Assembly (NCBI GenBank): GCA_003130845.1
Contig: QEXW01000072.1
Coordinates: forward strand, 1-64,000
Origin: Anaerolineae bacterium
Lineage (GTDB): Bacteria; Chloroflexota; Anaerolineae; Anaerolineales; Villigracilaceae
Direction: 5' to 3'
Length of the DNA stretch: 64,000 bases
A program made the position numbers and the translations under genes. Below are positions 4,462-61,852 of the stretch, piece by piece (within the stretch, counting starts at the first letter, position 1; the number at the start of each line of letters is the position of its first letter). The notes under the pieces are model-generated. The model did no database searches and had not been told where the DNA came from. It saw only the letters and a program-made list of their open reading frames with translations.

Positions 4462-4977
4462 TTGGCTATGCCTGAATCTCAAACCTATAGGCCTGAGCTA
4501 CTTTCGCGTCGCGGCGAGTGGAATGCTTGGTTGTTTGCGTTGTCTGCTACGGTGGGCCTATTTATGATTCGCGCCTGGGCAATTGTTCCTTCTTGGGTGT
4601 GGTTTTTTGTGGGGTTTTTATACTTTTCTGCTCTTTCCATCTCTTTCGGAAACTGGATGGACCGCCAGACTCGGTTGATGGTGTTTGCTGATGGGGTGGC
4701 TTATGAAAATGGTTTGCGCCGCGTACGTTTGCGGTGGGAACAAATTCAGCAAGTCCGACTCCTTTCTGCCCGCTGGGGAAAAACTGTCCAGGTACTTGGA
4801 GACACCGCTCATTTTTCATTCAATACGCTGGGTGAAGTTAAATTTCGCGGCCAGGTACGTGGGCGTACGGGCTTTGTACATGGACAAGCCATTCTTGAGC
4901 ACATCATTCGTTCTGCTGGACTTTTGGCGGTCACACAAAATGAATCGTGCACCATCTACTCGCGCGAACTTTCTTGA
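4462..4977 (+). CDS. Small membrane protein with a PH-like C-terminal domain
   Basis: About 170 residues: two hydrophobic segments near residues 25-45 and 48-65, then a soluble region of beta-strand character (TRLMVFADGVAYENGL, RWEQIQQVRLLSARWG) resembling bacterial PH (bPH) domains. I cannot name its family. The purine run GAGAGGGGG sits 6 bases before a TTG at 4462 and 12 before an in-frame ATG at 4468; either could be the start. It probably shares a transcript with the upstream HD protein. The promoter for the tyrS leader sits at its very 3' end. Confidence 0.55.
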   Translation: MAMPESQTYRPELLSRRGEWNAWLFALSATVGLFMIRAWAIVPSWVWFFVGFLYFSALSISFGNWMDRQTRLMVFADGVAYENGLRRVRLRWEQIQQVRLLSARWGKTVQVLGDTAHFSFNTLGEVKFRGQVRGRTGFVHGQAILEHIIRSAGLLAVTQNESCTIYSRELS

Positions 4978-4978
4978 T

Positions 4979-4985
4979 GTATAAT
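4979..4985 (+). promoter_or_regulatory. -10 element of the tyrS leader transcript
   Basis: GTATAAT ends 6 bases before the ATG of the tyrS leader peptide, so the transcript is expected to begin at or next to that ATG. No clear -35 box is present. It overlaps the stop codon region of the preceding gene. Confidence 0.75.
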
Positions 4986-4991
4986 ATCGCC

Positions 4992-5033
4992 ATGCAAGTC
5001 CGTTCGATTTCTTATTACTTCTCTCTGGATTAG
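4992..5033 (+). CDS. tyrS leader peptide (13 codons, Tyr-Tyr)
   Basis: The short frame encodes MQVRSISYYFSLD and stop. Codons 8 and 9 are TAT TAC (5013-5018), two consecutive tyrosines in a 13-residue peptide placed directly before tyrosyl-tRNA synthetase. The ATG lies 6 bases after the -10 element, so the peptide is predicted to be translated from a leaderless mRNA. Its stop codon is followed at once by the antiterminator arm (5035-5044). This is the classical arrangement for ribosome-mediated attenuation: stalling at Tyr codons when charged tRNA-Tyr is low would leave that arm free. The mechanism is inferred; the parts are seen directly. Confidence 0.8.
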   Translation: MQVRSISYYFSLD

Positions 5034-5034
5034 C

Positions 5035-5082
5035 CCTGCTGTGGACAGTTCAACGCGCCTGCTCCGCAGCAGGCGCGTTTTT
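5035..5082 (+). promoter_or_regulatory. tyrS attenuator: competing antiterminator and terminator hairpins
   Basis: Terminator: ACGCGCCTGCT (5053-5063) pairs perfectly with AGCAGGCGCGT (5068-5078) and is followed by a T-run (5078-5082). Antiterminator: CCTGCTGTGG (5035-5044) pairs with CCGCAGCAGG (5064-5073) over 10 bp including one G-U. The two share 5068-5073, so they exclude each other. A ribosome at the Tyr codons would leave 5035-5044 free; a ribosome at the stop codon 5031-5033 would cover it and allow termination. There is no T-box sequence here. Confidence 0.82.
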
Positions 5083-5108
5083 GTTGTAAAACTTTTTTGG
5101 AGGCTGCC

Positions 5109-6323
5109 ATGAATATCAACGAACAGGTCGAAATTTTGATGCAAGGTACAGAATATGGCGACGATGGTTTGCGCAAGACGATGGAGGCTGAACTTCGCGA
5201 ACGATTGCTTCAGGCTGAGGCAGAGGGCCGTAAACTCAAAGCCTATTGTGGTTACGATCCCCGGACTTCCGATTTGCACATTGGACACACAGTGACCATG
5301 CGCAAGTTGCGACAGTTTCAGGATTTGGGGCATGAAGTGGTCTTTCTGATAGGAACTTATACTTCCTTAATTGGTGACCCTTCGGACAAGGACAAATTGC
5401 GCCCGCTTCTGACCCAAGAGCAGGTGATGGAAAATGCTCGCACATACGCAGAGCAGGCGTTTCGTGTTTTAGACCGCTCCAAAACTATCATTCGCTACAA
5501 CCACGAATGGCTCTCCGGGTTGACATTTGCAGATTTAATTCAGCTTGGCTCGCATTTTACAATTCAGCAATTTCTCACACGCGAAGCGTTTCGTAAACGT
5601 TGGGATGGTGAGGATGCTATCTACTTGCATGAGTTCTTTTATGCAATTATGCAAGGATATGATGCCTTTGCGCTCAAGACCGATGTGCAGGTGGGCGGCA
5701 CCGACCAGTTGTTCAATATCATTACCGCTGGTCGCAAGATTATGACCGCTTTGGGCGAAAAGCCGAATATCGGTATCATCATGTCTATCTTGCCTGGTAC
5801 AGATGGCGTGGTGAAGATGAGTAAGTCGTTAGGGAATCACATTCCGCTTAACTCTACGCCCGCAGATATGTATGGAAAGGTCATGTCAATTCCTGATGCA
5901 GCGATGGTGCAGTATGCCCGCTTGGTAACACGCTGGCTGCCAGATCAAGTGGCTGCTTTTGAGGCAGATTTGCAATCGGGCAGGTTGCATCCGCGCGATG
6001 CAAAGATGAAGTTAGCCTGGGAGATAACGGCCACATATTACAGTGAAGCACAGGCCGACCAGGCACAGGAATCGTTTGTCCGCCTGTTTCAGCAAGGACA
6101 GGTTCCTGAGGATATGCCGGAGTACAGCCTTCAAGCGGGGCAAACCGTGCTGGATGTTTTGCTGGCTACGGGTATGGTGGCGAGCAAGTCGGAAGGACGG
6201 CGTATGATTGAACAGCATGGTGTGCGATTAGACGGAGATGTCCTGAATAAATTTGATGCCTTGTTTCCGCACCCAGGCGTTTTGCAGGTAGGTAAACGAC
6301 GTTTTGTGCGCATTAAGCAATAA
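5109..6323 (+). CDS. tyrS: Tyrosyl-tRNA synthetase
   Basis: Charges tRNA-Tyr with tyrosine using ATP; cytosolic, class I. The 404-residue protein has the HIGH motif within LHIGHT (residues 57-60), the tyrosine pocket region (YAIMQGYDAF, GGTDQLFNI) and the second signature VKMSKSLGN near residue 238. A C-terminal S4 RNA-binding domain covers about residues 340-404. The distance from HIGH and the KMSKS form suit the TyrZ-like second type of bacterial enzyme. The ATG at 5109 is chosen because GGAGG lies 5 bases upstream. Expression is probably controlled by the leader peptide and attenuator just upstream. Confidence 0.97.
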   Translation: MNINEQVEILMQGTEYGDDGLRKTMEAELRERLLQAEAEGRKLKAYCGYDPRTSDLHIGHTVTMRKLRQFQDLGHEVVFLIGTYTSLIGDPSDKDKLRPLLTQEQVMENARTYAEQAFRVLDRSKTIIRYNHEWLSGLTFADLIQLGSHFTIQQFLTREAFRKRWDGEDAIYLHEFFYAIMQGYDAFALKTDVQVGGTDQLFNIITAGRKIMTALGEKPNIGIIMSILPGTDGVVKMSKSLGNHIPLNSTPADMYGKVMSIPDAAMVQYARLVTRWLPDQVAAFEADLQSGRLHPRDAKMKLAWEITATYYSEAQADQAQESFVRLFQQGQVPEDMPEYSLQAGQTVLDVLLATGMVASKSEGRRMIEQHGVRLDGDVLNKFDALFPHPGVLQVGKRRFVRIKQ

Positions 6324-46693: not shown

Positions 46694-46768
46694 CCATACT
46701 GCATTCTAGCGCGCTCTATTCGTTTATTGGAAATATCGTTATAATCTAGACAACTAAATATCATATTA

Positions 46769-46926
46769 TCCTTCGGGGCAGGGTGACGCCTGCGTACACA
46801 AAGCGCAAGCGAATTCCCGATCGGTGGTAAAGCCCACGAGCACCAAAATGCATGATTCGGTGACGCTATCCAGCGCAACTGGTGGCGAATTCCGAAGCCG
46901 ACGGTATAGTCCGGATAGAAGAAGGG
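46769..46926 (+). ncRNA. FMN riboswitch (RFN element)
   Basis: The conserved RFN blocks appear in order: CCTTCGGGGCAGGGTG at 46770, ATTCCCGATCGGTGGTAAAG at 46813, CCCACGAGC, GATTCGGTG at 46854, AATTCCGAAGCCGACGGTAT at 46888, AGTCCGGAT at 46908 and GAAGAAGG at 46918. P1 closes CCTTC with GAAGG. Two arms are longer than usual: about 25 bases are inserted after GGGTG and about 26 after GATTCGGTG, both able to form small hairpins. It binds FMN and represses the downstream importer when FMN is plentiful. Confidence 0.95.
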
Positions 46927-46961
46927 CAACCCTTTGAGATGGGTTTGCTTTGCCGTACATG

Positions 46962-60810: not shown

Positions 60811-60817
60811 GTATAAT
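60811..60817 (+). promoter_or_regulatory. ruvB -10 element, leaderless type
   Basis: GTATAAT ends 6 bases before the ATG at 60824; no ribosome site and no clear -35. Confidence 0.6.
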
Positions 60818-60823
60818 CATGGC

Positions 60824-61852
60824 ATGACCGACCCCAAAAACCGCCCTCTTACCCCCGAAGCCAAACCCGAAGACCGCGTTGACCATGCTTTGCGCCCGCA
60901 AAAACTGGCTGATTTGATTGGTCAGGACCAGGTGAAAGAAAACCTGGCGATTTTGATTGCGGCAGCCCGACAACGTGGTGAATCTCTGGACCATGTCTTA
61001 TTTTATGGGCCGCCTGGTTTGGGAAAAACTACGCTGGCACATGTCCTGGCCAATGAGATGGGTGTCAATATCAAAATCACTTCCGGCCCCGCCATCGAGC
61101 GTGCTGGTGATTTGGCGGCTATTCTCACCAACTTACGGGCGGGAGATGTCTTGTTCATTGATGAGATTCACCGGCTTGGGCGAGCAGTTGAAGAAGTGCT
61201 TTACCCTGCGATGGAGGATTTTGCCCTCGATATTGTGATTGGTAAAGGGCCCTCGGCGCGTTCTATCCGGCTTAAACTGCCGCGTTTTACCGTAATTGGA
61301 GCCACAACCCGTTTGGCACTCGTGACAGCACCTTTACGGGCGCGTTTTGGAGCCGTCTATCGCCTGGATTATTACGAGCAGCCGGCCATGGAGGCCATTG
61401 TTCGACGGGCTGCTGCGATGCTTAAAGTAGAAGCCGAGCCGCACGGCGTGGCTGAAATTGCCCGCCGGGCACGAGGCACACCCCGCATTGCTCTGCGTCT
61501 TTTGCGCCGTGCGCGTGACTATGCTCAAGTGCGTGGTGCAGGCTGTATCACGCGTGAAATGGCCGCCCAGGCGCTTGACCTGATGCAAGTTGACCCGCTG
61601 GGCTTAGACGACGTAGACCGGCGTGTCTTGAAGGCTATCATCGAAAAGTATAATGGAGGTCCGGTTGGGCTTAACACGATTGCCGCTGCGATTAGCGAAG
61701 AAGCCGACACGATTATGGATGTGGTGGAACCGTATCTTTTGCAGCTAGGCTTTCTTGACCGCACGCCACAGGGTCGAATTGCCACCAAATTAGCGTATAG
61801 CCACCTAGGGGTGAAATACCCTGAAGAGGGAGCGCAACCTAAACTGTTGTGA
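60824..61852 (+). CDS. ruvB: Holliday junction branch-migration helicase RuvB
   Basis: Hexameric motor that drives RuvA-bound junctions. The 342-residue protein has Walker [10 protein letters not shown], Walker [11 protein letters not shown], sensor GATTR and the winged-helix end. Start at 60824, with the first residues [15 protein letters not shown]; only a -10 element precedes it. No ruvA or ruvC nearby. Confidence 0.97.

Follow-up and report, generated by a model that had tools for sequence, protein, structure and literature searches.

What controls the tyrosyl-tRNA synthetase gene (tyrS) in a genome rich in T-boxes? The genome behind our window (by which we mean the whole 64-kb stretch of DNA analysed) carries eight of them, before a trpB-like gene, trpE, ileS, pheST, thrS, serS, valS and leuS. 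T-box matches were obtained in 60 of the 60 class genomes tested, 49 above the family cut-off. At tyrS, however, no T-box (RF00230) was found in the window, in 40 loci of the class, or in the phylum loci, and the T-box match at L168 is on the opposite strand. With no RF00230 match upstream of tyrS, the T-box was rejected as its control element. Since eight T-boxes lie elsewhere in the genome and none at tyrS, the gene is, judged by these matches, an exception in a T-box-rich genome. An Rfam scan of the 64-kb window placed no family at the tyrS leader. The sole Rfam match in the window was an FMN riboswitch (RF00050) at 46765–46930, with 77.6 bits.

The features of the tyrS region, all on the + strand, are as follows.

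4462–4977, +: upstream gene, a bPH_6-like membrane protein; Met start probably at 4468, stop TGA at 4975–4977, tail ...TIYSRELS
4980–4985, +: −10 hexamer TATAAT, two bases (TG) downstream of the upstream-gene stop
4992–5033, +: leader frame MQVRSISYYFSLD, 13 codons, ATG at 4992, stop TAG at 5031–5033; read and translated
5013–5015 and 5016–5018, +: predicted control codons TAT and TAC (Tyr Tyr), codons 6 and 5 before the stop
5035–5045, +: antiterminator 5' arm, from folding and from arm pairing and covariation in relatives
5052–5082, +: intrinsic terminator, a 12-bp stem (5052–5063 with 5068–5079) with loop 5064–5067 and T-run 5078–5082
5063–5073, +: antiterminator 3' arm, coinciding with the terminator loop and part of the terminator 3' arm
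5099–5103, +: tyrS Shine–Dalgarno sequence GGAGG, from the sequence
5109–6323, +: tyrS, tyrosyl-tRNA synthetase, 404 aa, ATG at 5109; from translation and homologues in relatives

The upstream gene product matches Pfam PF10756 (bPH_6) with E = 1e-6. The original prediction of a 13-codon leader with consecutive TAT TAC was borne out by reading and translation, and its ATG does lie six bases 3' of TATAAT. After the leader TAG, the window reads CCCTGCTGTGGACAGTTCAACGCGCCTGCTCCGCAGCAGGCGCGTTTTT, then GGAGG, then tyrS. The two hairpins had been placed to within one base pair of what we find. The antiterminator, given as 10 bp (5035–5044 with 5064–5073), is one of 11 bp, including one G-U pair (5042/5066), and the terminator, given as 11 bp (5053–5063 with 5068–5078) plus a T-run, has 12. 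They are mutually exclusive, as had been claimed, because bases 5063 and 5068–5073 are used by both. Folding of 5034–5075, which leaves out the end of the terminator, gives the antiterminator −22.5 kcal/mol (z −3.7), with 0 of 200 shuffles as stable; the terminator folds at −22.3 kcal/mol (z −4.9).

We consider it very likely that tyrS is controlled here by ribosome-mediated transcription attenuation, through which charged tRNA-Tyr is sensed. The sequence basis for an attenuator consists of both hairpins, the conserved codons, the covariation, the conserved geometry and the association with tyrS; the stalling, the readthrough, the direction of the response and the transcript start we infer. 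The locus has a frame with cognate codons, exclusive hairpins, the arm at an appropriate distance from the stop, and tyrS downstream on the same strand, with the translation of the frame itself predicted. Transcription would begin at the leader ATG or beside it, and translation of the leader would do without a Shine–Dalgarno sequence. When Tyr-tRNA is scarce, the ribosome would stall at TAT TAC with its front edge short of 5035; the 5' arm (5035–5045) would be left free to pair with 5063–5073, the terminator would be blocked, and the polymerase would enter tyrS. With ample Tyr-tRNA, the ribosome would reach the stop and cover the 5' arm, the 12-bp terminator would form, and transcription would end. 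A ribosome covers roughly 12 nt beyond its A site. With the A site at TAC it would cover the transcript to about 5028, and at the stop to about 5043. In many relatives, the last codons of a full-length bPH_6 gene would stand in for the separate leader.

The arrangement can be followed in relatives. tyrS was located in 37 of 41 relatives, in 109 of 150 class genomes sampled, and in 80 loci, the best of which come from Anaerolineales, Anaerolineaceae, Anaerolinea sp. and other Chloroflexi MAGs. Before comparison, their upstream sequences were turned to one orientation. At most order-level tyrS loci, a frame with Tyr codons at its end is followed by the antiterminator arm and then a GC-rich terminator. 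Examples of leaders from the order, each closed by a stop codon, are MFASLYPYYYAIF, MISKAYSTYYALF, MNSSSYSSYYTQA, MFKVACVSYYYSHP, MLELKCKSYYYYSHP, MKFAGRFGYYYYFHP, MVCNTIFFQYTYYPHR and MNFTFAFSYYYSHA. Residue enrichment was taken as the per-residue maximum over frames ending before the terminator, in the last 12 codons, by the same computation for all residues. Over 30 order-level loci that have a terminator, the mean for Tyr was 2.4 and the next highest, for Ser, was 1.3; at least three Tyr were present in 53% of these loci, while any other residue reached that number in at most 13%. Tyr is the only residue consistently enriched in the relatives' leaders. The terminator finder, which allowed longer loops, missed the terminators of L007 and L033, though these are visible by eye.

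Conservation of the Tyr codons in relatives had been set beforehand as a check, and it came out positive. Their position is kept as well: in most cases the last Tyr stands four codons before the stop, whether the leader is free-standing or formed by a gene tail. The antiterminator 5' arm begins about at the stop, between −3 and +5 nt of it in 37 of 39 loci, so that the distances do fit attenuation, as had been proposed for the window. The arrangement of leader and hairpins recurs before tyrS across the order and, on this comparison of sequences, is not the product of chance. The L026 leader has a single Tyr, and the whole device is lost in the family members L022, L032, L037, L052–L054 and L058. 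At L017 and L012, short direct repeats (CACTCTCCACTCTCCA... and AGAGATTAGAGAATAG...) extend the spacer between the terminator and tyrS.

The pairing of the antiterminator arms is maintained between genomes. Over 39 loci, the arms of each locus pair at a mean of −19.8 kcal/mol. With arms exchanged among genomes the mean is −15.1, and none of 20000 permutations reached a value as low as that of the own pairing, with the loci treated as independent of shared ancestry. In an alignment of 25 loci, changes on both sides are seen in 7 of 10 antiterminator pairs. The covariation is 0.421, above all 500 shuffles (0.245 ± 0.024), with shared ancestry uncorrected, and it falls to 0.06–0.15 when the partner arm is slid. 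The antiterminators of L013, L027, L046 and L009 are weak or no better than shuffles. For the terminator, covariation says little, the stem being conserved in sequence. Covariation of the competing hairpins, another of the proposed checks, is thus seen in the antiterminator arms and gives little signal in the terminator.

A real terminator and antiterminator might be switched by an RNA-binding protein such as TyrRS, or by another trans factor, and not by a ribosome. Autoregulation by aminoacyl-tRNA synthetases is known, for example in E. coli thrS. The closest relative (G009, locus L002), whose TyrRS is 90% identical, lacks the Tyr run and yet keeps the arms and the terminator; the frame there is the acidic tail of another upstream gene, with one Tyr, as its last codon. 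A protein sensor is hard to reconcile with a 5' arm whose sequence changes while the pairing is kept, which leaves no obvious protein-binding motif, or with Tyr codons and a stop distance that are conserved even in genes for full-length proteins. We regard it as quite unlikely, and keep to the ribosome as the sensor.

As a hold-out, a model was made of the post-stop region of the 25 aligned loci, with the Tyr codons left out. It gave 28 matches at E < 1e-6 in 27 of the 41 family genomes, all at tyrS, and among them is the second tyrS of G357. Genomes outside the model set carry Tyr leaders, such as MFELKRETYYYYSHP, MISRLYAYYPEIP, MQQLRFGSYYYTSP and MFIHRPFSYYYSRA, each followed by a stop. A weaker match in G012, at 3.6e-5, is away from tyrS, and we therefore take the useful limit of the model to be about 1e-6. 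The location of the strong matches bears on an alternative in which the hairpin does no more than end transcription of the upstream gene, the short frame and the antiterminator pairing arise by accident, and the tyrS promoter is elsewhere. It is true that a strong intrinsic hairpin sits between two genes, and that some relatives have no leader and a TATAAT near tyrS instead. However, an ordinary terminator is contradicted by the antiterminator covariation, and against it stand also Tyr codons conserved in a fixed register, a −10 lying between the upstream gene and the terminator, and strong model matches that are all at tyrS. The upstream genes vary by lineage, whereas the device stays with tyrS. 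This alternative is highly improbable. We give almost no weight to the idea that the leader stalls the ribosome by its own sequence, as an arrest peptide, or senses a general slow-down of translation and not Tyr-tRNA: attenuators with arrest peptides are known in general, and certain lineages have recurring residues beside the Tyr run (SYYYSHP), but Tyr alone is common to the leaders, the flanks vary freely (tails ...YYARE, ...YYTRP, ...YYGR), and the regulated gene is the cognate synthetase.

The proposed ribosome-mediated attenuator has a second form, in which the leader is the tail of a gene. In about 20 relatives, a full-length upstream bPH_6 gene supplies the leader with its C-terminus (...YY[AST]R before the stop), and the attenuator comes directly after it. 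That gene is a homologue of the one at 4462–4977 in the window, and the antiterminator arm is immediately 3' of its stop. The C-termini include ...NGVVYYSRR, DGYYYSRL, SYSYYARK, RRYYARE, VYYYARE and GYYYARG. Among 39 distinct homologues, at least two Tyr are present in the last 12 residues in 19 of the 21 with an attenuator directly after and in 3 of the 18 others (Fisher p = 3.5e-6, with the homologues counted without correction for relatedness). Those with no attenuator following mostly end in a single Tyr (IYMR, VYTR, VYQR, VYIR), and upstream-gene tails in the window's genus likewise have one (IYSR, LYSR, VYSR). An exception is L040/L259, with a YY tail and no attenuator. Because families f7, f12 and f14 each show this contrast among their own members, the association of the second Tyr with the attenuator probably reflects more than one event. 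Within genus g222, an apparent gene-tail leader (...QYAYYSRA) is present in G370 and a free-standing leader in G356, from which the two forms may interchange at a short evolutionary distance. For the order as a whole, we think it probable, with some reserve, that tyrS is under Tyr-codon attenuation where other synthetase genes have T-boxes, with many lineages sensing through the C-terminal codons of bPH_6 and keeping the second Tyr for regulation.

The free-standing leaders share their start. A perfect TATAAT precedes the ATG in 26 of 26 scored free-standing leaders, with a gap of 6, 7 or 8 nt in 20, 4 and 2 of them, so that the spacing predicted for the window is general. The signal reported for leaderless genes of Chloroflexi is TAtaaT (PMC3160421), the same as the leader −10 here. 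Since TATAAT lies 6–8 nt before the ATG in all 26 scored leaders, as close to the start codon as is expected of a leaderless mRNA, the leader transcript is probably leaderless and would start at or next to the A of the ATG, to judge by the −10 spacing. No convincing −35 for the leader was found in the window, and a generic promoter scan of the window did not list the leader promoter site. The pattern TATAATNNNNNNATG is found twice in the 64-kb window, against 0.23 expected; the other TATAAT-6-ATG match is at 60812–60826. At L260, directly 3' of the bPH_6 gene, is TGATATAATCGCCCCATG, where a gene that looks scpA-like by eye starts 7 bases after TATAAT. This second start hints that leaderless starts may be common in these genomes.

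Upstream of tyrS, sister orders of the class have Tyr-codon frames of other architecture, as do a few genomes from outside the class. A second type (L127, L132, L134, L148, L149, L171, L175, L177, L181, L187, L136, L059 and L270) is apparently leaderless and has TAY NNN TAY followed by a nearly invariant in-frame hairpin, GGGGCG-loop-CGCCCC, and usually then a terminator. The peptide is YSYxGGDYAPxP or YxYPRGxxRP. Swapping arms between genomes did not support a post-stop antiterminator in the sister-order YSYxGG leaders (p = 0.78), and for that reason we claim only Tyr codons and leaderless geometry for the sister orders. In a third type (L076, L154, L156, L159, L169, L172, L183, L184 and L185), the leader before tyrS ends in YIYxSGL and a stop. 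The stop lies within AGCGGATTGTAGCGC, for which GCGCTACAATCCGCT further downstream is a nearly perfect pairing partner, and ACCCAC...GTGGGT often comes next. More Tyr-containing leaders (TGYYHCGSARAAHATGGFTAS, RQYIYLWRARGWGAIS and FKYIYRRRAQGPGVGA, each with a stop) stand before tyrS at L178 and L182, and at L224, L234 and L237; the last three loci are from the same phylum, outside the class. Other synthetase genes were also considered. Before hisS, L288 and L287 have apparent leaderless His leaders, MNKYCLLTHATASHHHHHHNGHFSLG after TAAAAT and MTQRHLDHCHASHRGAHPARRRTFGLG after TATAAT, each closed by a stop and followed by a hairpin. His leaders were found before hisS neither in 25 class loci, by a crude start finder, nor in the window's genus, and a class-wide hisS rule is not claimed, the His leaders having been seen in these two genomes. 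No convincing Trp codons were found before trpS.

The kind of regulation is known. E. coli pheST has an attenuator with the pheM leader peptide, cognate Phe codons and competing hairpins. The tyrS leader resembles it in combining a cognate-codon leader peptide with competing hairpins before an aminoacyl-tRNA synthetase gene, and differs in that pheM belongs to Gammaproteobacteria, uses Phe codons in place of Tyr, and has a normal ribosome-binding site. The genome of the window does the opposite of E. coli here, with pheST placed under a T-box. A T-box tyrS of the Bacillus subtilis type (RF00230) shares with our locus the gene, the signal of uncharged tRNA-Tyr and the logic of terminator versus antiterminator, but there the tRNA binds the RNA directly and there is no leader frame. 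In bacilli, His leader-peptide attenuation has been predicted for hisS*/hisZ in place of a T-box (Naville and Gautheret 2010, PMC2965389). That too would be leader-peptide control of a synthetase gene family outside Proteobacteria, but it concerns His and Firmicutes, and the portion of the paper drawn on here describes neither a leaderless start nor a gene-tail form. According to the same paper, all leader-peptide systems known to its authors before bacilli hisS were from Proteobacteria and Actinobacteria. As given there, their filters dropped terminators closer to the upstream than to the downstream gene, and such filters would tend to miss the gene-tail form. In Sinorhizobium meliloti, the trpL leader peptide is leaderless, its transcript starting at the ATG of the frame (PMC7298713), as we propose for the tyrS leader; that system, however, serves Trp biosynthesis through trpE(G) and belongs to Alphaproteobacteria (PMC7298713). 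In the open-access literature searched, we found neither Tyr leader peptides nor leader peptides for tyrS, nor any leader-peptide attenuator in Chloroflexota, in agreement with the original prediction that none had been described for tyrS of this phylum; priority is uncertain. We are not certain, then, but the Tyr leader at tyrS, its occurrence in this phylum and the gene-tail form may be new.

If the reading is right, leader-peptide attenuation is extended to Tyr, to tyrS and to Chloroflexota, and T-box and leader-peptide sensing would be comparable side by side in one cell. The tyrS leader also makes an attenuator driven by leaderless translation open to test in a concrete case. The gene-tail form suggests one way in which leader peptides could come into being or disappear, as what is the last codons of a gene in one species is a mini-gene in a sister species, and searches confined to intergenic sequence would tend to miss it. 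If the order-wide picture is true, the window would represent a derived state: the sensing role would have passed to a separate leaderless mini-gene, and the bPH_6 tail would have lost its second Tyr.
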